Shown here piece by piece: positions 30,299 to 56,233 of a stretch of 64,000 nucleotides of DNA. Source of the stretch: Gordonia oryzae (GTDB lineage: Bacteria; Actinomycetota; Actinomycetes; Mycobacteriales; Mycobacteriaceae); contig NZ_RKMH01000006.1 of assembly GCF_003797185.1 (NCBI RefSeq), forward strand, positions 186,001 through 250,000. The letters are read 5' to 3'. Position 1 is the first letter of the stretch. Each line of letters starts with the position of its first letter. The position numbers were made by a program, and so were the translations under genes. The notes below the pieces were generated by a model that was given only the letters and a program-made list of their open reading frames with translations, was not told where the DNA came from and did not search any database.

Positions 30299-30513
30299 GA
30301 CACTCATGTGATTAGACACGCTGGCGACCACCCAGGTCAAGCCGAGCGAGAAATCTCCTTAATACCACCGGCCGGAGCAAACCGGAGTTGCGACACGTGG
30401 GGAAGATGATTCGTCAGGAATCTCACAGATCCTGCGCTCCCGGATGTCCGGATTGCGATCTGAACCGGCCCCTCGGGACACCGACCCGTACGGTCTACCG
30501 CAAGCGCGGGCGC

Positions 30514-30553
30514 AGCGCCACCCCCTGTCGAGGAGCGCCACCCCCTGTCGAGG
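30514..30553. repeat. 20-bp tandem duplication upstream of fbiA
   Basis: AGCGCCACCCCCTGTCGAGG occurs twice, head to tail and identical, at 30514-30533 and 30534-30553, about 95 bp before the fbiA start. Confidence 0.95.
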
Positions 30554-30647
30554 CCCGACGCGCACGTCGGTCATCGGTTCTGGTTCACCAGCCGTTGTGG
30601 GCCACCAGAGTCGGACCGCCGCCGTCGGGTCACTACAGTGGAGCGCT

Positions 30648-31712
30648 GTGAAGGTGACCGTTCTCGTCGGTGGTGTCGGTGGCGCTCGATTCCTGCAGGG
30701 TGTTCGCGAATTGTTCGGGCCGACGCCGTTTCCCGCACCCACCCAGGACTCGGCGGGCGCCGAGGCGCCAACTCCCCCCGGCCCCCACGAGATCACTGCG
30801 ATCGTCAACGTCAGCGACGATGCGTGGATGCACGGGGTACGAATCTGCCCTGACCTCGACACCTGCATGTACACCCTCGGAGGGGGCATCGACACCGAGC
30901 GCGGATGGGGGCGCAAGGCTGAAACCTGGCACGCCAAGGAGGAACTCGCCGCCTACGGCGCCGATCCCGACTGGTTCGGGCTCGGCGATCGCGACCTTGC
31001 CACCCATCTCATCCGCACCCAGATGCTCGACGCGGGCTACCGGCTCTCCGACGTCACCGCCGCACTGTGTCGACGTTGGCAGCCCGGCGTGCGGCTGTTA
31101 CCGGCCACCGACGACCGCCACGAGACTCACGTCGTGGTGTCCGCTCCGGATGGCGAGGACGGCGCCCGGGTGGCGATCCACTTCCAGGAGTGGTGGGTTC
31201 GACACCGGGCCAAGATCCCGACATTCGGGTTCGCCCAGGTCGGTTCGGACGACACGCACGCCGCTGCGGGCGTGATCGAGGCGATCGCCGACGCCGACGT
31301 CGTCCTGCTCGCCCCCAGCAATCCGGTGGTGAGCATCGGTGCGGTGATCACAGTGCCCGGCGTGCGCAGCGCGCTGCGCTCCACCGGGGCACGCGTCGTC
31401 GGCGTGAGTCCCGTCATCGACAACCGGCCCTTGCGCGGGATGGCCGACGAGTGTCTGTCGGTGATCGGAGTCGAGACCACCGCCGAGGCGATCGCGGCAC
31501 ACTACGGCGCGCGCAGCGGCAACGGAATCCTCGACGGGTGGCTCATCGCCGACGGAGACGAGGCCGTGGTCGAGGGCATCTCCATCGGCGCCGCTCCGTT
31601 GCTGATGACCGACCCGGCCACCACCGCGCACATGGTGCGCGCGGCGTGTGCCCTGGTCGGCGTCGACACCCCGCAGATCGTCGGACCGGACTCCACCGGG
31701 GTCGATCGATGA
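30648..31712 (+). CDS. fbiA: F420 biosynthesis: 2-phospho-L-lactate (phosphoenolpyruvyl) transferase FbiA
   Basis: 354 residues from the GTG at 30648 (TGGAG upstream). [15 protein letters not shown] is the conserved nucleotide/FO-binding start and [26 protein letters not shown] the metal-binding DD region of the CofD/FbiA family. It joins the LPPG-type donor to FO, giving (dehydro)F420-0. An earlier in-frame start at 30444 would cover the tandem repeat and add a non-conserved leader. The stop overlaps fbiB by 4 bp, so the two are coupled as in M. tuberculosis. Confidence 0.95.
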
Positions 31713-33076
31713 CCACAGGCAACGGCGCATCACCGATCACTGATCACCGCGCGCCGGACATCGTCGAGGTGCGCCCGGTGACCGGGCTGCCGGAATTCGA
31801 TACGACGACCGACCTAACCAGCGAAATACTTACGGCCGCACCGTGGTTGGCGTCCGGTGATGTGCTGGTGGTAACCAGCAAGGTCTTTTCCAAAACCGAG
31901 GGCCGCATGGTGCCTGCCCCCGCCAACCCCGACGAACGCGACGCCCTGCGCCGACGCCTCGTCGTGCAGGAATCGGTGCGGATACTCGCACGCCGCAACC
32001 GCACGCTGATCACCGAGAACCGGCTCGGCATCGTGCAGGCGGCCTCCGGCATCGACGGCTCGAATGTTCCGGTCGACTCGCTCGCGCTGCTGCCCGAGAA
32101 TCCCGACCGCAGCGCCGCAGAACTCCGCGCATCCCTCGCCGCGGCCGCCGGGATCGATGTGGCGGTGATCGTCACCGACACCATGGGCCGCGCGTGGCGG
32201 ACCGGACAGATCGACGTGGCGATCGGAGCCGCGGGTATCGCGGTCACCCACCCCTACGAGGGGTGTGTCGACAGCCACGGAAACCCGTTGGTGGTCACCG
32301 ACATCGCCGTCGCCGACGAGATCGCGGCCGCGGCAGATCTGGTGAAGGGCAAACTCGCGGGGGTACCGGTGGCCGTAGTGCGCGGATTGTGCCCCACCGA
32401 TGACGGGTCACGGGCGGCCGACCTGATCCGGCCGACCGACGACGACCTGTTCCACCTCGGTACCGCAGAGGCGATCGAGCAGGGCCGTCGGGAGGCGCTA
32501 TTGACGCGGCGGTCGGTGCGCGCCTTCGCCGACACCCCGGTCGATCCTGAGTCGATCACCGCGGCATGCGCGGACGCGCTCACCGCGCCCGCTCCGCACC
32601 ACACCCACCCAGTGCGATTCGTGTGGGTCCGCGACCCCGCGCGCCGAACGCGACTGCTCGATGCGATGGGCGAGGCGTGGCGCGCCGATCTCAGCGCCGA
32701 CGAGAAGACCGCCGAGTCGATCGAGAAACGCGTCGCACGAGGGCGAATCCTCTACGATGCCCCGGAACTGGTGATCCCGTTCCTGATCCCCGACGGCGCC
32801 CACACCTATCCCGACGAGCGTCGCAACGCCGCCGAGCACACCATGTTCACCGTTGCCGCCGGTGGCGCCGTCACGGCCCTGCTCGTGGCCCTCTCGGTGC
32901 GTGGACTCGGCTCCTGCTGGGTCGGTTCGACCATCTTCGCCGCGTCCGTGGTGACCTCCCACCTCGAGGTTCCCGCGGACTGGGAACCGCTGGGCGCCAT
33001 CGCTATCGGCCACCCTGCGCAAGAGTTCGGGCTGCGCGGGGGCGCACCTACCGACGATTGGCTGATCCTGCGGTGA
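31709..33076 (+). CDS. fbiB: F420 gamma-glutamyl ligase / FMN-dependent reductase FbiB
   Basis: 455 residues. The N-terminal half (~1-245) is CofE-like, with [12 protein letters not shown] and [24 protein letters not shown]. The C-terminal half (~250-455) is a nitroreductase-fold domain with [18 protein letters not shown] and [12 protein letters not shown]. The fused protein adds several glutamates to F420-0 and reduces dehydro-F420. Its ATG overlaps the fbiA stop and its own stop overlaps the NUDIX start (GTGA), making a three-gene operon. Confidence 0.95.
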
Positions 33077-47767: not shown

Positions 47768-48883
47768 TCAGGCCAGGCGTTGCACCGCGGTCGCGATGCG
47801 CTCGTCGGTCGCCGTCAGCGCGATCCGCACGTGGTCGACGCCCGCGGGCCCGTAGAAGTCGCCCGGCGCGGCGAGGATGCCTCGCCGCGCGAGCCAATCG
47901 ACGGTCTCCCGGCACGGTTCGCCGCGGGTGGCCCACAGGTACAGACCGGCCTCAGAGTGGTCGATGGTGAAGCCCGCTGCGCGGACCGCCGCGGACAGCT
48001 CGGTTCGGCGCTCGGCATAGCGGGCGCGCTGGACCTCGACGTGCGCATCGTCGGTGAGCGCTGCTGTCATCGCCGCCTGAATCGGGTACGGCACCATCAG
48101 CCCGGCATGTTTGCGCACGGCCAGGAGTTCGGCGATCAGGTCGCGGTCACCGGCGAAGAAACCCGCGCGATAGGACGCCAGGTTGGAGATCTTCGACAAC
48201 GAGTGGACCGCGAGCAGCCCGGTGTGATCGCCGTCGGAGACACGTGGGTCGAGCACCGAGACGGCCTCGGCGTCCCAGGACAAACCGAGATAGCACTCGT
48301 CGGAGATGACGACGGTCCCGCGTTCGCGCGCCCACTCGATCACCTTGCGCAGGTGGTCGACCCCGAGGACTTTGCCAGTCGGGTTGGACGGCGAGTTCAG
48401 GAACAGCACGGCCGGGCGCGCCGGCCCGAGCGCCACCGTCGAATCGGCACGCACTGGGGTCGCACCGGCCAGCAGGGCACTGGCCTCATAGGTCGGGTAG
48501 GCGACCTCGGGAATGACGACCATCTCGCCGACGCCGACACCGAGCGTCGCGACCACCCCCGCGATGGCCTCCTTGGTTCCGACCACCGGAAGGATGCTCG
48601 ACTCGTCCACGCCGGCGGCGCCGTAGCGACGACCCAAGGCCGCGGCTGCGGCGTCGCGCAGAGCTGTGGTCCCGATCGTCGTCGGATAGCCCGGGAACTC
48701 CGAGGCCTGCGCGAGTGCCTCGCGGATGACCGGATCGACGGGATCGACCGGGGTACCGACCGAGAGGTCGACGATGCCATCGGGATGGCAGTTCGCGGTG
48801 GCCTTGGCCTCGGCAAGGGTGTCCCACGGAAAATCGGGAAGGGCGGCACTGACCCGGCGTCGGGCCGGACGGTCACCGGTCAC
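47768..48883 (-). CDS. dapC: Succinyl-diaminopimelate aminotransferase DapC
   Basis: 371 residues, fold-type I PLP enzyme. LDLSVGTPVDPVD-type N-terminus, FLNSPSNPTGKVL (PxNPTG), VISDECYLGL and HSLSKISNLASYRAGF with the Schiff-base Lys. It uses Glu to aminate succinyl-2-amino-6-oxopimelate. It follows ferredoxin by 7 bp, as Rv1177-Rv1178. Confidence 0.93.
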   Translation of the reverse strand: MTGDRPARRRVSAALPDFPWDTLAEAKATANCHPDGIVDLSVGTPVDPVDPVIREALAQASEFPGYPTTIGTTALRDAAAAALGRRYGAAGVDESSILPVVGTKEAIAGVVATLGVGVGEMVVIPEVAYPTYEASALLAGATPVRADSTVALGPARPAVLFLNSPSNPTGKVLGVDHLRKVIEWARERGTVVISDECYLGLSWDAEAVSVLDPRVSDGDHTGLLAVHSLSKISNLASYRAGFFAGDRDLIAELLAVRKHAGLMVPYPIQAAMTAALTDDAHVEVQRARYAERRTELSAAVRAAGFTIDHSEAGLYLWATRGEPCRETVDWLARRGILAAPGDFYGPAGVDHVRIALTATDERIATAVQRLA

Positions 48884-48890
48884 CGCGAAC

Positions 48891-49220
48891 TCAGTCCTCG
48901 TCCTCGTTCATCGGGGGCAAGGACTTGATGAAGGGCGGGTCGAAGTCGGTCTTGCCGACCTTGCTGGCACCGCCCGGCGAGCCCAGCTCGTCGAAGAAGT
49001 CGGCATTGGCACTGAGGTACGGATCCCATTCGTCGGGGACGTCATCCTCGTAGAAGATCGCCTCCACCGGACACACCGGCTCGCAGGCACCACAGTCCAC
49101 ACATTCATCCGGCTGGATGTAGAGACTGCGACCACCTTCGTAGATGCAATCGACCGGGCACTCCTCCACGCATGCCTTGTCCATCACATCCACGCAGGGT
49201 TCCGCGATGATGTAGGTCAC
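48891..49220 (-). CDS. fdxC: Seven-iron/4Fe-4S ferredoxin FdxC
   Basis: 109 residues from the GTG at 49220, preceded by AAAGGAG. The cysteine pattern is C-x-DVMDKAC-x3-CPVDCIYEGG for the first cluster and CVDCGACEPVCPVEAIF for the second. It matches mycobacterial FdxC (Rv1177). An electron donor to cytochrome P450s or reductases is likely but not specified. Upstream in-frame codons to 49343 are not conserved-looking. Confidence 0.94.
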   Translation of the reverse strand: MTYIIAEPCVDVMDKACVEECPVDCIYEGGRSLYIQPDECVDCGACEPVCPVEAIFYEDDVPDEWDPYLSANADFFDELGSPGGASKVGKTDFDPPFIKSLPPMNEDED

Positions 49221-49580
49221 CACACACTCCTTTGCTGCAAACACTTCGGTCGGCCGCCGTCGCGCAGCGGGCCGAGATGTACGCGAGGGCTGGTCGCGTC
49301 GAGCACGCAGGCAGCGGCAATCCGCAGCTCTGAAAGACCGCACACGCGCGTGGTCCTAGAGTATCTGCCCACCAGGCGCCCCTCCCACACCCGCCCCTGC
49401 TCACCGACGATCGTTGAGTCACACATCACACCGGGTCCCGGTTGCGCCCAGGGTGAGCAGAACCCTCCCGCTCATGTCGATCCGCGGTCACCCTGGTCGG
49501 GTGAGCACTCCATCGAGGCGATGTCGCGGCGGTCACCGTATCCGACGCACTCCCCTCGCCCCTCGTTCGCAGGAGAACTC
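49221..49580. promoter_or_regulatory. fdxC/cysteine dioxygenase divergent region
   Basis: 360 bp carrying both promoters. On the minus strand an AT-richer run near 49361 (TAGAGTATCTG as read on plus) is the only -10-like element I see for fdxC. The plus strand has AGGAG eight bases before the CDO ATG. No gene is evident; a long frame crossing from 48726 is antisense to dapC and fdxC. Confidence 0.4.
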
Positions 49581-50210
49581 ATGACTTCGACCCTGTCCTC
49601 CCCTACCCTGTCCTCCCGTACCCAGCCGTCCCGTTCACACCGCCCGGACCGGTCCGCCCGCCACACCGCCGCCCACCTTCCGACCCGGCTACGCCCGGCC
49701 GACCTGCTGCGAATCACCGACCAGGGCGTCGCCGACGTCCTCGACCGACGGTACGACCACCTGCTGCCGACCACCTGGGACCCGGTGGAACGGTGGTCGA
49801 CCCGTCTGGAATCCGACGACGACCTCGACCTGTGGCTGATCAGTTGGACGCCGGACCGCTCCACCCACCTTCACGATCATGCCGGATCGCTGGGAGCGCT
49901 GACCGTGTTGAGCGGCGCACTGCGCGAGTATCGCTGGACTGGTGACGATCTCGCGCTGCGCATCCTCTCGGCTGGCGATCAGGCGGCATTCCCGCTGGGC
50001 TGGGTCCACGACGTGCAGCATCACGGGAGCATCCCGCCGGCGCGTGGTCTCACCGCCCCGACAGGCGATGCCCCCGTGGCCACTTCGAGCGGTCCGACGC
50101 TCAGCGTCCACGCGTACTCCCCGCCATTGACCGCGATGTCGTTCTACGAGGTGACCGACGGCGGCGCACTCCGCCGGACCCGGACCGAACTGACCGACGA
50201 CCCGGAATAG
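49581..50210 (+). CDS. Cysteine dioxygenase (type I)-like
   Basis: 209 residues. After an N-terminal Ser/Thr/Arg-rich tract (~1-35), the cupin core has the iron His triad: HLHDHAGSLGAL (two His) and GWVHDVQHHG (third). STHLHDH-x-GSxGA and LSGALREYRW are strong CDO landmarks. It oxidises cysteine to cysteine sulfinate with Fe(II). It runs with the rhodanese gene 18 bp downstream, a logical sulfur pair. AGGAG precedes the ATG at 49581. Confidence 0.88.
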   Translation: MTSTLSSPTLSSRTQPSRSHRPDRSARHTAAHLPTRLRPADLLRITDQGVADVLDRRYDHLLPTTWDPVERWSTRLESDDDLDLWLISWTPDRSTHLHDHAGSLGALTVLSGALREYRWTGDDLALRILSAGDQAAFPLGWVHDVQHHGSIPPARGLTAPTGDAPVATSSGPTLSVHAYSPPLTAMSFYEVTDGGALRRTRTELTDDPE

Positions 50211-50228
50211 AGCACCTATCGTGAACCC

Positions 50229-50603
50229 ATGGCGATGACCATCGACGACATGCTGCTCGTCGCGCGGAAGTCCCTGCAACGACTAGCCGCCGAGGATCTC
50301 GCCGCCGAACTCGCCGCCGGTGCCGTGCTCGTCGACATCCGCCCAGCCGCGCAACGCGCTGCCGAGGGTGGGGTTGCCGAGGCACTCGTGATCGAACGCA
50401 ATGTCCTGGAATGGCGATGCGATCCGGCCAGCGACGCGCGGATCCCACAGGCCGTCAACCACGACGTGCGGTGGATCATCCTGTGCTCGGAGGGGTACAC
50501 CTCGAGCCTGGCGGCGGCATCGTTGCAGCAGTTGGGATTGCACCGCGCCACCGACGTCGTCGGGGGATATCGGGCCCTCGCGGCGCATCACGATGCCCGG
50601 TGA
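50229..50603 (+). CDS. Rhodanese-domain protein
   Basis: 124 residues with LAAGAVLVDIRPAAQRA (first helix-strand pair) and active loop ILCSEGYTSSLAAA, where Cys is the persulfide acceptor. It is the usual partner of cysteine dioxygenase in actinobacteria. The active loop is CSEGYTS rather than the CxxGxR of sulfurtransferases, so activity is plausible but not certain. Confidence 0.88.
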   Translation: MAMTIDDMLLVARKSLQRLAAEDLAAELAAGAVLVDIRPAAQRAAEGGVAEALVIERNVLEWRCDPASDARIPQAVNHDVRWIILCSEGYTSSLAAASLQQLGLHRATDVVGGYRALAAHHDAR

Positions 50604-50999: not shown

Positions 51000-51056
51000 T
51001 CACGCCACCGCCGACCACGTCCGGGGTGACGGAATCCGATCGGCAGCCAGACCGCT
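50870..51056. repeat. 56-bp tandem repeat, 3.3 copies, duplicating the cofG 3' end
   Basis: Identical 56-bp units start at 50870, 50926 and 50982, with a 19-base partial copy at 51038. The partial copy and the unit at 50982 encode the natural C-terminal residues [18 protein letters not shown] and stop (read on the minus strand). The units at 50870 and 50926 lie beyond the stop and are out of frame with it (56 is not a multiple of 3). The repeat therefore looks like recent tandem duplication of the gene end. Confidence 0.97.
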
Positions 51057-52244
51057 GTGCGGATCGCTCAGTGCCGCTACGTGCTCATGCAGTGCCGGGT
51101 CGATCCACGACGACGCGTCGAGGATGTACGGCGGCTGCGCGGTGAGACGTTCGGTCAGGGTGAATCCTGCGCCCGCGGTGAGGTCGGCGAGCGCGTCGAG
51201 GTTGGGCCACGGGCGTTCGGGATTGACGTGATCGGGCGTCAACGGTGACACCCCACCCCAGTCGTCGACGCCGGAAGCGATGAGTGCCTCGCATTCGGCC
51301 GCCGACACCAGGTTCGGCGGCGCCTGAATCCGCATGTGCCGACCGAGCACGATCCGCGCGGTCGCGACCGCGGCGAGGAATTCGGTCATCTCGGCATCGG
51401 GGGTACCACGCATCGCGGTGTCCGGCTTGGCCCGGAAGTTCTGCACGATCACTTCCTGAATGTGCCCGCCGGCAGCGGCGATCTCGGCCATCGCAAGCAA
51501 CGATTGCGCTCTCTCGGGGAGACTTTCACCGATGCCCACGAGGATTCCAGTGGTGAACGGAATCCCGACCGCGCCCGCGTCACGCAACACCTGCAGTCGT
51601 ACCAGCGGATCCTTGTCTGGGCTGCCGTAATGAGGCATACCCTTCCCGGTGAACAGTCGGCGCGAGGTGGTCTCGAGCATCATGCCCATCGACGGGGCGA
51701 CCGGGCGGAGGGCGGTCATCTCCTCGGCGCTCATCACACCCGGATTCAAGTGCGGCAACAACCCTGTGCGCGACAGGACCGCGATCGCGGCGGCGCGAAG
51801 GTAATCCAGCGTGGAGGTGTAACCACGCTCGGACAGCCATTGCGCGGCCTGCGGCCACCGATCCTCCGGCCGGTCACCGAGAGTGAACAATGCTTCCTTG
51901 CAACCGAGTTCGGCGCCCTTGCGCGCTATGTCGACGACCTCGTCGAGCTCGAGGTACATCCCCGCACCGGCCCGCGCGAGCTTCCCTGGGATCGTCACAA
52001 AGGTGCAGTAGTGGCATCGGTCGCGACACAGTGTGGTCAGTGGGATGAACACCTTGCGCGAGTAGGTGACCTGCCCGGATCGTCCGGCAGCCGCGAGTCC
52101 CTCATCGCGGAGATCGGCGGCGATTCGTTGCAGCGCATGCAGATCGGCGCCGGACGCCGACAACAGGGTGCTCGCCACCTCGACGTCGGTGACCTCGGCG
52201 CTCATCGCGGCATCGAGTGCCTCGACCATGCTCATGGACGGCAT
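51000..52244 (-). CDS. cofG: CofG-type FO synthase half (radical SAM)
   Basis: 414 residues. The radical SAM motif is intact: C73, C77 and C80 in [73 protein letters not shown] and [24 protein letters not shown] match the N-terminal half of mycobacterial FbiC nearly word for word from memory. This half closes the deazaflavin ring of FO using SAM. In most actinobacteria CofG and CofH are fused in FbiC (~850 aa); here the protein stops at the linker. It is the last gene of a three-gene operon, 6 bp after the monooxygenase. Confidence 0.93.
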
Positions 52245-52250
52245 CAGTGC

Positions 52251-53756
52251 TCACTCCCCTCGCTCGCTGGTGGTGGCCACTGAGGATCGGGTGACAAACG
52301 GCTCCGGATCGAACGTGCCGTTGCGCTCGCGGAACGACAACGCCGTACCCGGCCACAGCAGTGTCAGCCGACCACTCTCGGGATCGACATACCAACTGTC
52401 GCAACCGGTCAACCACACCGTATCGGAACTCCGGTCGTCGATCTCCCGGGTGTATGCGGCCTCGGCGTCCGCGGTGACCTCGAGTGCGGCAATCCCCGCC
52501 TCGGTCATGTGATCGAGGGCGCCGACGACGTAATCGAGTTGCGTCTCGATCATGTAGATCGCCGAATTGTGGCCGAGAGCCGCATTCGGGCCGTCGAGCA
52601 CGAACATGTTCGGAAAGCCGGCCACCACGGTCGAGGCGTAGGAGATCATGCCGTGCCGCCAGTGGTCGGCGAGCAACTCGCCGTCCCGGCCGTGCACGCG
52701 CGTGGCGACCGGCGGCCGCGCCGTCTCGAAACCCGTTGCCATGACCAGGATGTCAAGTTCATGACTGCGACCGCTGGACGCCCGCGCCTTCGATTCGACG
52801 ACCGAGTCGAGCGACCCCGGCTCGAAGACGACGTTCTCACGCAACAAAGTAGGATAGAAATCGTCACTGAGAAGGATTCGTTTACAACCGATCTCGTAGT
52901 CTGGGGTGAGTTCGGCACGCAGCACCGGATCAGCAATCTGCGCGCACAGATGCCTCAATGCCCGCGCCCGGATCTCGTCGATGTCGGGACGGCGACGCAG
53001 CCGCTGCGCGAACGCAGCGTCGGCGTTGAGCAGCAGTTCGTTCCGGTGTGCGGCTGCCCGCTGCGGGTCTACGAGCTCTGCCCGCTCGGCGGGGTCGAGT
53101 CGACGATCCTCGCGCGGCACGATGTAGGGCGGGGTGCGGCTGAAGATGACGAGCTCAGCGGCGCGGTCGGCCACATGCGGCACGATCTGGATCGCCGACG
53201 CCCCGGTACCGACCACCCCGACCCGGGCGCCTGCCAGATCGAGGTCGGGCTCCCAGGCGGCGGTGTGGACCACGGTCCCCGGAAAGTCGTCGAGGCCCTC
53301 GATGTCGGGGATTCTCGGCTCCGACAACCTGCCCACGGCCAGCAACAGGATTCGAGCGGTCAGCGACTGCGCACCCTCGCCGCACTCGGTAACCAGATGC
53401 CATCGGGCACTCTGCGCATCCCATGTGGCACTGGCGAGTTCGCGACCAAGAAGGATGTGGTCGGCAAGTCCTTCGTCCTGGACGAGCCGGTCGAGGTAGG
53501 CGCGGATCTCGGCGCCGGCGGGATAGACCGCCGACCAGTCGGCGGGAGGACGGAACGAGAACGAATAGAGGTGACCGGGGATGTCGCAGGCGATGCCGGG
53601 ATAGATGTTGTCACGCCAGGTTCCGCCCACGGCGTCGGCGCGTTCGAGGACCACGAACGATTCCTTCGCGCGCCGTGCCAGATGCGTGGCCATGCCCAGC
53701 CCGGCGAATCCCGCCCCGACGATCGCGACGTCGACGTGGGGTGCGCCCGCGGTCAC
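52251..53756 (-). CDS. Baeyer-Villiger-type flavin monooxygenase inside the fbiC locus
   Basis: 501 residues. Rossmann motif VGAGFAGLG (14-19), GGTWRDNIYPGIACDIP, the BVMO fingerprint FPGTVVHTAAWEP (158-170, FxGxxxHxxxW), and a second NADPH motif GTGASA (183-188). These are sufficient for the class B flavoprotein family; the oxidised substrate is unknown. Its start overlaps the end of the CofH-like gene by 4 bp (ATGA) and its end is 6 bp before cofG. Such a gene between FO-synthase halves is not part of any F420 pathway I know. Confidence 0.9.
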   Translation of the reverse strand: MTAGAPHVDVAIVGAGFAGLGMATHLARRAKESFVVLERADAVGGTWRDNIYPGIACDIPGHLYSFSFRPPADWSAVYPAGAEIRAYLDRLVQDEGLADHILLGRELASATWDAQSARWHLVTECGEGAQSLTARILLLAVGRLSEPRIPDIEGLDDFPGTVVHTAAWEPDLDLAGARVGVVGTGASAIQIVPHVADRAAELVIFSRTPPYIVPREDRRLDPAERAELVDPQRAAAHRNELLLNADAAFAQRLRRRPDIDEIRARALRHLCAQIADPVLRAELTPDYEIGCKRILLSDDFYPTLLRENVVFEPGSLDSVVESKARASSGRSHELDILVMATGFETARPPVATRVHGRDGELLADHWRHGMISYASTVVAGFPNMFVLDGPNAALGHNSAIYMIETQLDYVVGALDHMTEAGIAALEVTADAEAAYTREIDDRSSDTVWLTGCDSWYVDPESGRLTLLWPGTALSFRERNGTFDPEPFVTRSSVATTSERGE

Positions 53757-54880
53757 CGGCCTGCCCGGTGCGGGATCGGCCGACCGCCGGGCTGCCGATA
53801 GGCGGTGGTCCGCTGGACCGGCGTGCGGCCGGCGCGCTCGGCGAATCCGGCGAGGGTATCCGCGTCGAGGAGGCGACCGGCCTCAGGGCCGGCCGACGGC
53901 ATGATCGTGCCGTCGAGGAGCATTCCGCCGATATCGTCAACCCCGCCCCGCAGCACCTCGTCGACGACGTCGGCGTCGAGCTTGGTCCAGGCGACCTGAA
54001 TGTGGTCGAACCGACCCAGGGTGACCAGCCGCGCGACGGCGTGAATCGCCCGCGTCTCGCGGCGTGAGGCGATCGCCTCCGCCGCCGACCGCAGGTGGGG
54101 TGGGGTGTTGTCGGCGACCATCGGCATCAGGATGAGCTCACTGAACCCGCCTGTACGCGACTGGATCCCGCACAGGGTCCGCAAATGGGCGAGAACGTGG
54201 CCCGGCGTTTCGACATGCCCGTACAACACCGTCGCCGTCGAAAACAGTCCCGCCTCGTGCGCTGCGGTGATGACCTCGATCCATCGGTCGCGGGCGTGGT
54301 CGGCCCCGGACGGTGCGAGGACGGCACGGACCTCGTCGTCGAGGATCTGCGCCGCGGTTCCCGGCACCGAACCGAGTCCGGCGCCGCGTGCGCGGCGCAG
54401 GAACTCCTCGACGTCGATGCCCAGGCGGGCGGCGGCGTCGCGGATCTCCGGTGGGCGGTAGGCGTGCAGATGGACCGGCGCCGCGGCGGTGATCCGCTCG
54501 ATCAGGTTCAGGTATCCCTCGGCCGGGGCATCGGCGGGTAGTGGCCCCTGCATGCAGATCTCGGTCGCCCCGAGCTCGTGGGCCTCGACGACCAGATCCT
54601 CCAGTGACGGTTCGGCGGTCAGGCTCGCGGCGACCGCGGTGTCGAGATTGCGATTCACCACATAGGTGAGGGCCTCGGGATCGGTAACCGCACGGCGTGC
54701 CGCGTCGGCGTGCGCGCACAGCTCGTCGAGGAGATCGCCGTCGGCGCCGAGCAGCGCGATCCACTCCTCCTCGCAGAGGTCGGCCGACGTCCCTACCGGG
54801 GCGGTAGACAATCGCTCCAGCGCCGCGGCGACCCGCTCGACGGGCGCCCGTCGATCGGTCGCCCACGCGCGCAACACCAT
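53753..54880 (-). CDS. CofH-like protein without the radical SAM cysteine loop
   Basis: 375 residues. The N-terminal ~65 residues resemble the inter-domain linker of FbiC, and the rest follows CofH: LTYVVNRN (72-79), GATEICMQG, HLHAYRPPEI, GAGLGSVPGTAAQILDDEVR, WIEVITAAHEAGL, YGHVETPGHVLAHL, QSRTGGFSELI, and GGVDDIGGMLLDGTIMPSAG. Where CofH has CxxxCxxC immediately after NRN, this protein continues LDTAVAASLTAEPS and resumes alignment at LEDLVVEAHELGATE. About 19 residues and all three cluster cysteines are missing. The deletion is in frame with no stop or frameshift nearby. It cannot act as a normal radical SAM enzyme. Confidence 0.88.
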   Translation of the reverse strand: MVLRAWATDRRAPVERVAAALERLSTAPVGTSADLCEEEWIALLGADGDLLDELCAHADAARRAVTDPEALTYVVNRNLDTAVAASLTAEPSLEDLVVEAHELGATEICMQGPLPADAPAEGYLNLIERITAAAPVHLHAYRPPEIRDAAARLGIDVEEFLRRARGAGLGSVPGTAAQILDDEVRAVLAPSGADHARDRWIEVITAAHEAGLFSTATVLYGHVETPGHVLAHLRTLCGIQSRTGGFSELILMPMVADNTPPHLRSAAEAIASRRETRAIHAVARLVTLGRFDHIQVAWTKLDADVVDEVLRGGVDDIGGMLLDGTIMPSAGPEAGRLLDADTLAGFAERAGRTPVQRTTAYRQPGGRPIPHRAGR

Positions 54881-54929: not shown

Positions 54930-55304
54930 TCACACGTCTGGACGTGGCAGCCGTCCCGACCAGATCAGTGCCACCGGGATGCCAAGTCCGAACAGGACCA
55001 ACATCAGCGTCGCGGGAACGGTGGTACCGCCGAGGTAGAGCACCACGTCACCGCCCGGACCGGTGAACGCCGCGACCAGCAGGACCAGAACCCACGCGGT
55101 CAACGGCGCGAATCTCAGCGGCGATTCGGTGGTGCGCGCCGCCAGCCACAGCAGTATCGCGTTGACCAGGCCCGCGACGATGGCGACGGCCGGAACGGGC
55201 TGCCCCCACACCCGCAGGTAGCAGAACGCGACCGATCCCAGTCCAACCACGACACCGTCGACGACCAGCATCGCGAGGAGGAAGCGGTCGAGCGCGCGGG
55301 TCAC
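54930..55304 (-). CDS. Four-TM membrane protein (Rv1171-like)
   Basis: 124 residues with four hydrophobic segments at about 8-30, 36-56, 64-86 and 92-114, few charged residues, and a short basic C-terminus. Size, topology and position after mshB resemble Rv1171. Function unknown; the stop/start overlap of 4 bp with mshB implies coupling. Confidence 0.8.
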   Translation of the reverse strand: MTRALDRFLLAMLVVDGVVVGLGSVAFCYLRVWGQPVPAVAIVAGLVNAILLWLAARTTESPLRFAPLTAWVLVLLVAAFTGPGGDVVLYLGGTTVPATLMLVLFGLGIPVALIWSGRLPRPDV

Positions 55305-56233
55305 GGTCGCGCCTGTGCGGGACGGCGTTGCGGGGTGAACAGATCGCTGTTGCGAGCGGTGGGCTCGTTCGGTGCGGGGTTCGAGGACCCCTCTGCTGCC
55401 TGGCTGCGCAAGATGAAGTGCTCGACGTCGAAGATCGGCGCGAGGATGTTGTTGGACAAGGCGTATTCGGTCCGCGAGGGCGCCACGGTCACCTGCGTCG
55501 CGTGTACAGCCAGGGCGTCGACCTTGCGCTGGTACACCCCACCGATGTCGATGGCGGTGGTGATCCGGTTGTCGGGATAGCTGGGCAGTTCGGCGTCATG
55601 CGGCATCCGCCAGCCGTCGGGGACGCGGTCGGCCGCCGCGGCAAGACCGGCGCGCAGTGCGCTCGCCTCGGTGACCGACTCGTACACCAGGTAGTCGGTT
55701 CCGGTCCGCCCCGAGGCGATCGGTACCGCGGCCACCGATGCCTCGTGCACCGTCATGTGGTCGGGGTGTCCGTAGGTCCCCGCGGCGTCATAGGTGACGA
55801 CCACCTGCGGATCGAACTCGGCGATCTCGTCGGCCAGCGCCGCGACGACCGTGTCGAACGGTCCCTGCGCCAGCGCGCGCGGGTGCTCCGCCGACGGTGT
55901 CCCGGCCATCCCGGAGTCGCGCCAGCGTCCGGCGCCGCCGAGGAATCGCGGGGTCAGCGGCGGGCGACCGGGCGGGGTGAGCGCCTCGAGCGCCCTGGTC
56001 AATTCGAGGATGCGGTAGCCGCCGAGCTGATCGGCACCGCCGTCGGCGACCAGTCGAGCCCAACGGTCGCCGATCACCTCGCCCTCTTCACCCAGGGTGA
56101 AGGTGACCACCCGCACGTCGACCCCCTCGTCGAGATATCGGGCGATGGTGCCACCGGTCATGATGGTCTCGTCGTCGGGGTGGGCGTGCAGTAGCAGCAG
56201 TCGGCGGCCTGCCGACTCGGACGGTTCGGTCAT
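55301..56233 (-). CDS. mshB: Mycothiol deacetylase MshB
   Basis: 310 residues. Zinc motif LHAHPDDE at 16-22 (His18, Asp21) and the third ligand in YGHPDHMTVHEA; VVTYDAAGTYGHPDH is the family signature. It deacetylates GlcNAc-inositol in mycothiol synthesis, or acts as amidase on mycothiol conjugates. The start overlaps the lpqW-like stop by 4 bp; the order lpqW-like, mshB, Rv1171-like resembles Rv1166-Rv1170-Rv1171. Confidence 0.94.
   Translation of the reverse strand: MTEPSESAGRRLLLLHAHPDDETIMTGGTIARYLDEGVDVRVVTFTLGEEGEVIGDRWARLVADGGADQLGGYRILELTRALEALTPPGRPPLTPRFLGGAGRWRDSGMAGTPSAEHPRALAQGPFDTVVAALADEIAEFDPQVVVTYDAAGTYGHPDHMTVHEASVAAVPIASGRTGTDYLVYESVTEASALRAGLAAAADRVPDGWRMPHDAELPSYPDNRITTAIDIGGVYQRKVDALAVHATQVTVAPSRTEYALSNNILAPIFDVEHFILRSQAAEGSSNPAPNEPTARNSDLFTPQRRPAQARP

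Follow-up and report, generated by a model that had tools for sequence, protein, structure and literature searches.

A CofH homologue that has lost its radical cluster motif and is paired with a Baeyer-Villiger monooxygenase: a predicted oxygen-dependent route to coenzyme F420 in Gordonia and some related bacteria

The Gordonia oryzae stretch analyzed here (contig NZ_RKMH01000006.1, positions 186,001 to 250,000; 64,000 nucleotides, hereafter the window) carries three closely packed genes for a CofH-like protein, a type I Baeyer-Villiger flavin monooxygenase (BVMO) and CofG. In the usual synthesis of the deazaflavin FO (7,8-didemethyl-8-hydroxy-5-deazariboflavin), CofH and CofG are radical S-adenosylmethionine (SAM) enzymes, often fused as FbiC. 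The CofH-like protein of the window has lost the CX3CX2C motif of this family, and the best explanation, which as stated is probably correct, is that it and the BVMO together stand in, with the use of O2, for the radical-SAM CofH step and still yield the normal CofH product. Our data suggest that many Gordonia, and some of their relatives, have a second, oxygen-dependent F420 route. The genes concerned are:

53753..54880, minus strand: cluster-less cofH-like gene (375 aa, ATG start)
52251..53756, minus strand: type I BVMO (501 aa, GTG start)
51000..52244, minus strand: cofG, radical-SAM FO synthase CofG (414 aa, ATG start, CRDRCHYC motif)
54596..54646, minus strand: approximate site of the radical-SAM cluster loop of normal CofH, here shortened and lacking CX3CX2C (residues 79-95, following the retained NRN at 76-78)

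A first-pass annotation of the window had described the gene order CofH-like, monooxygenase, CofG, and the sequence confirms it, with a 4-bp overlap at the first junction and a 6-bp gap at the second. That annotation missed the loss of the CofH radical site.

A CofH scaffold without its radical site, and its partner

The cluster-less CofH matches the CofH profile TIGR03551 over positions 3-344 of 345, with a score (280.9 bits) under the cut-off of 374.1, and the radical-SAM domain PF04055 only from profile position 33, at 27.3 bits for a gathering cut-off of 29.5. The fused-FbiC model NF006687 (cut-off 1018) is not passed, its matches of 653 and 323.9 bits being split over two genes. CX3CX2C is absent, and the conserved VVNRN leads straight into the next helix, the cluster loop being gone. 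A sequencing or assembly error was ruled out as the cause of the missing loop, which is lacking in 35 distinct cluster-less sequences from many assemblies. The G. polyisoprenivorans counterpart is 91% identical to the window protein.

We compared these 35 sequences column by column with 89 canonical CofH sequences (all distinct, some nearly alike). Among 212 columns conserved in canonical CofH, 84 persist in at least 90% of the cluster-less sequences, and more than 90% of these sequences lack another 66. Three positions that we presume, from radical-SAM motifs, to bind SAM have switched: G113 is replaced by P in 83% of the cluster-less sequences, S142 by R in 100%, and E178 is never E. The kept residues include H137, H139, N76-R77-N78, Q111, H222, E248, R284 and W298, and many of the polar ones likely line the barrel. 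R142, invariant in the cluster-less set and absent from the canonical one, could at a guess hold a carboxylate. When 17 cluster-less sequences are aligned, C109 is the one cysteine that never varies, and canonical CofH has it as well. The best fold match of the predicted structure (predicted local distance difference test score, 85) is MqnE (6xig, 6xi9), with a template-modelling score of ~0.75.

The protein is under purifying selection, as judged from sequence comparison: none of 36 Gordonia matches contains an internal stop in its frame, and the ratio of nonsynonymous to synonymous substitution rates (dN/dS) is 0.14-0.30 (5 pairs), as compared to 0.035-0.12 for the BVMO and 0.03-0.10 for CofG.

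Concerning the partner, its sequence and fold predict a Baeyer-Villiger enzyme with an intact fingerprint that uses flavin adenine dinucleotide (FAD), reduced nicotinamide adenine dinucleotide phosphate (NADPH) and O2. The paired BVMO has the type I features, namely two Rossmann motifs, FxGxxxHxxxW and the conserved Asp and Arg, and it aligns with solved BVMOs, the best solved relatives of the window protein being cyclohexanone, steroid and phenylacetone monooxygenases. The catalytic positions D58, F158-x-G160, H164, W168 and R293 are invariant in 22 paired sequences. After the W the motif presumably has P or D, where the window BVMO has E. The G. oryzae genome (G000) encodes, at other sites, at least six further BVMO-like proteins (273-385 bits). 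In one locus (L007) the BVMO beside the cluster-less CofH is split over two frames that overlap and score 400 and 326 bits, perhaps because of an assembly frameshift, and in a metagenome-assembled genome (MAG; L060:7076-8623) the BVMO has a low-complexity, glycine-rich insert.

Pairing, distribution and descent of the two genes

Fetching loci from species genomes by similarity to the cluster-less CofH gave the best 80 of 520 relatives, a sample and not a census, in which CX3CX2C is present in the CofH part of 54 loci and missing from that of 26. The latter belong to Gordonia (15), Nocardia (4), Williamsia (3), Rhodococcus (1), Pseudonocardia (1), a Microbacteriaceae MAG (1) and an Actinomycetes MAG (1). 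In all 26 the cluster-less CofH is followed on the same strand by the same BVMO, whose aligned part starts between 3 bp before and 86 bp after the CofH stop, as opposed to none of the 54 canonical loci. A set of 30 loci, 15 with and 15 without the motif, shows the same pattern within flanks of about 1.5 kb. In one of the 54 canonical loci, that of Geodermatophilus tzadiensis (L114:2444-4564), a different and weaker BVMO (272 bits) lies just upstream of a normal fused fbiC.

The association holds in the reverse direction. A profile of the 22 paired BVMOs was searched against 397 genomes of the order and the best 20 loci were fetched: each of the top five (G364, G005, G000, G302 and G104, scoring from 881 down to 610 bits) has a cluster-less CofH as neighbour, as opposed to none of the following 15 (at most 567 bits). 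One of the five, G104, was thus found through the BVMO alone, with no use of CofH; here a fusion protein of at most 887 aa, in which the CofG motif is intact and the CofH half cluster-less, precedes the BVMO. The same fused arrangement occurs in the Microbacteriaceae MAG (L058), while G302 has separate genes in the order cofG, cluster-less cofH, BVMO, and other genomes have the CofH-BVMO pair with cofG elsewhere. The arrangement of the window, which the first-pass annotation proposed to look for in other genomes, does recur, and the view that the three genes belong together gains support. The reversal of the usual order is real; however, we dropped it as a key feature because the order differs between lineages.

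Within the order, at least 5 of the 397 genomes carry a cluster-less CofH, a lower bound because score alone does not set distant ones apart; a class-wide search (394 genomes, E <= 1e-128) returned two Gordonia only, being too strict for distant members such as G302 and G104. Among 59 Gordonia species, 36 have a match resembling the cluster-less CofH (421-814 bits), 23 an FbiC-like match (213-248 bits) and none both; the motif region was inspected in 16 species of the first group and 8 of the second, and the remainder were assigned by score. Of 14 genomes examined singly, 12 carry the cluster-less CofH, and the other two, in which normal FbiC stands alone, served as controls. In 8 of the 12, including G. 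polyisoprenivorans, CofG is present and no CofH scores over the family cut-off; outside Gordonia these are three Williamsia genomes, Rhodococcus sp. HNM0569, Pseudonocardia kujensis, Nocardia miyunensis and the Microbacteriaceae MAG. In N. miyunensis the CofH half is gone and a stub of the FbiC linker is left at the end of CofG, whereas N. transvalensis keeps both.

The cluster-less CofH sequences make up one side of a branch with 100% support (62 sequences, quick method), which holds when the loop columns are removed (34 sequences including G104, itself a long branch). The paired BVMOs form one clade with respect to eight other BVMOs (support 100/100), and the distance matrices of the two proteins are correlated (r = 0.86, n = 22 pairs; a value that no permutation out of 2000 reached). 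CofG from these genomes is instead scattered among FbiC, with seven label changes in a 43-sequence tree, at least four of them forced by the starred branches. Comparison thus gives good support to a joint history, in which the cluster-less CofH and the BVMO of each lineage moved as a pair and supplanted the radical CofH half next to CofG proteins of unrelated lineages. The simplest account would be that the pair moved between lineages and that the resident radical half was then lost several times; the direction of transfer is inferred, the trees being unrooted.

CofG, the F420 pathway and the gene neighbourhood

Other features of the window are:

30444..31712, plus strand: fbiA (cofD) frame, match over residues 71-402
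31709..33076, plus strand: fbiB, F420-0:L-glutamate ligase
55301..56233, minus strand: mshB, upstream neighbour
48891..49343, minus strand: 4Fe-4S ferredoxin frame (fdxC-like), downstream neighbour
47768..48883, minus strand: dapC, adjoining the ferredoxin gene

The CofG of the window is an ordinary member of its family, scoring 448.8 bits against TIGR03550 (cut-off 213.35) and having CX3CX2C in the form CRDRCHYC. A search for a separate full-length fbiC, as the first-pass annotation had advised, came back empty in the 4.52 Mb G. oryzae genome (rated 100% complete), as did those for a second cofG and another cofH, the two weak extra cofH matches being the cofG gene itself. Across cluster-less genomes, of the 200 CofG columns conserved in canonical sequences, 164 persist in at least 90% of sequences and three are lost (24 versus 86 sequences). 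CofG has hardly changed while CofH has changed strongly, so the altered step would be that of CofH, and the substrate of CofG is probably the usual one.

The presence of fbiA and fbiB in the same window, also claimed earlier, stands, although the true start of fbiA may lie further in, since its match covers residues 71-402 only. With fbiA, fbiB, fbiD and five matches to PF04075 (the F420H2-reductase family) in its genome, G. oryzae probably makes and uses F420.

The mshB, ferredoxin and dapC genes presumably flank fbiC in M. tuberculosis as well. Between cofG and the ferredoxin gene, the plus strand (48726-50603) carries a frame resembling cysteine dioxygenase and another gene of rhodanese type, and between the cofH-like gene and mshB a frame of 124 aa (54930-55304, minus strand) with no Pfam match at E <= 1e-5. 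A comparison of 12 loci gave no helper gene conserved beside the pair beyond the flanks common to Gordonia and Williamsia sterculiae; conserved frames on the opposite strand were taken as shadows of the coding strand.

Proposed chemistry, alternatives and known systems

According to two papers, canonical CofH cleaves tyrosine to a p-hydroxybenzyl radical, which is added to 5-amino-6-ribitylaminouracil (ARU), and the adduct is then oxidized (PMC8498797; PMC8210684). In the route that we propose, the BVMO would use FAD, NADPH and O2 to insert an oxygen beside the keto group of 4-hydroxyphenylpyruvate. The resulting 4-hydroxybenzyl oxalate ester should readily shed oxalate to leave a p-quinone methide. 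Phenylacetone monooxygenase inserts oxygen likewise in phenylacetone. The old triosephosphate isomerase (TIM) barrel of the cluster-less CofH would hold the quinone methide together with ARU, the C5 of ARU would attack this electrophile, and CofG, still a radical-SAM enzyme, would finish ordinary FO. The mass balance closes: ARU plus C7H6O gives C16H22N4O7, the same formula as the canonical CofH product, so that this two-electron route needs no radical and CofG would need no change. The functional replacement of CofH by the pair is, on the sequence evidence, quite likely. The particular substrate, 4-hydroxyphenylpyruvate, and the ester are put forward tentatively, and the wider picture of a radical-SAM barrel that shed its cluster, turned into an alkylating enzyme fed with p-quinone methide by the BVMO, and displaced the radical half as a horizontally spreading two-gene module is similarly tentative.

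The same replacement might instead run by other chemistry, which is a real though not the favoured prospect: the BVMO could act on 4-hydroxyphenylacetaldehyde to give a formate ester, for which the mass balance closes equally, it could N-hydroxylate tyrosine, as class B flavin enzymes can oxidize nitrogen, or it could oxidize an adduct held by the cluster-less CofH, which could even serve as a scaffold only. However, the enzyme bears the Baeyer-Villiger fingerprint, its best solved relatives act on ketones, and pure scaffolding accords poorly with the many internal residues that the cluster-less CofH keeps. The first-pass annotation had favoured a modified deazaflavin, or CofG chemistry on another substrate. 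A new enzyme added to the operon and the rebuilt site of the cluster-less CofH would fit such a product, but CofG, though drawn from several FbiC lineages, has hardly lost any of its conserved columns, the genome has ordinary fbiA, fbiB and fbiD together with F420H2-reductase-family proteins, and no alternative FO source turned up in it. This idea therefore appears improbable, and a modified deazaflavin is not needed to explain the trio. Least probable is that the cluster-less CofH works by radical chemistry after all, on some unusual cluster, or that its gene is decaying into a pseudogene: the protein does fall within the CofH family, with MqnE as the best match of its model, yet its one invariant cysteine is shared with canonical CofH, the presumed SAM positions are lost, and both the open frames and the dN/dS values speak against decay.

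Some observations weigh against an oxygen-dependent replacement of CofH. Four of the 12 singly examined genomes with the cluster-less CofH, three Nocardia and one MAG, also keep an intact FbiC in addition to the pair. Replacement by the pair is thus not universal, and we can explain this coexistence only as an intermediate or back-up state. These four also favour the idea that the pair serves an unrelated pathway, the strains importing FO or holding an unrecognized CofH, which we nevertheless consider rather unlikely given that CofG is kept without a normal CofH in seven locus-derived genomes, in G302 and G104 (one CofH match each at E <= 1e-40) and in Gordonia genomes, and that it shares an operon or a protein with the pair in G302, L058 and G104. 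The genomes reached through loci (G041-G054) come with no completeness rating. The cluster-less CofH is less constrained than the BVMO and CofG, as seen from its higher dN/dS, and its most distant member, in G104, lacks D181, D182 and E145, which all the others keep. Neither an aminotransferase nor any other helper was found kept beside the pair in the 12 loci, leaving the BVMO substrate without support from gene context, and in open-licence PubMed Central (PMC) papers we found no report of F420 production by a cluster-less Gordonia.

If the proposal of an oxygen-dependent CofH step is right, it would be an exception to the universal mechanism with two SAM-radical domains by which, according to a 2021 review, all studied F420 producers make FO (PMC8498797). 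It would show an enzyme shifting from radical to oxygen-fed chemistry with scaffold and product kept, and would provide a CofH step that is less sensitive to oxygen; one paper names the oxygen sensitivity of FO synthase among the factors that may limit how much FO E. coli can make (PMC11917521). The variant would go unnoticed where genes are annotated automatically as FO synthase. We found no paper on a cluster-less CofH or on a BVMO in FO synthesis, in a search of the open-licence PMC literature that is weak evidence of novelty.

Compared to known systems, the cluster-less CofH shares with radical-SAM CofH, or the C-terminal half of FbiC, the fold, the family over the whole length, the partner CofG and 84 of the 212 conserved columns; it differs by the missing cluster loop, the replaced presumed SAM residues and a BVMO that is always next to it in the loci seen. 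MqnE, the aminodeoxyfutalosine synthase that best matches its model, is on the contrary an active radical-SAM enzyme of menaquinone synthesis. The window BVMO has the fold, the FAD and NADPH motifs, the fingerprint and the catalytic Arg of type I enzymes such as phenylacetone, cyclohexanone and steroid monooxygenases, but belongs to a separate clade tied to the cluster-less CofH. A functional parallel is given by pairs such as HemF/HemN, where aerobes rely on an O2-using enzyme for a reaction otherwise carried out by a radical-SAM enzyme. However, HemF and HemN are unrelated proteins, whereas here the old radical-SAM scaffold seems to have been kept, stripped of its cluster and supplied with an oxidase partner.

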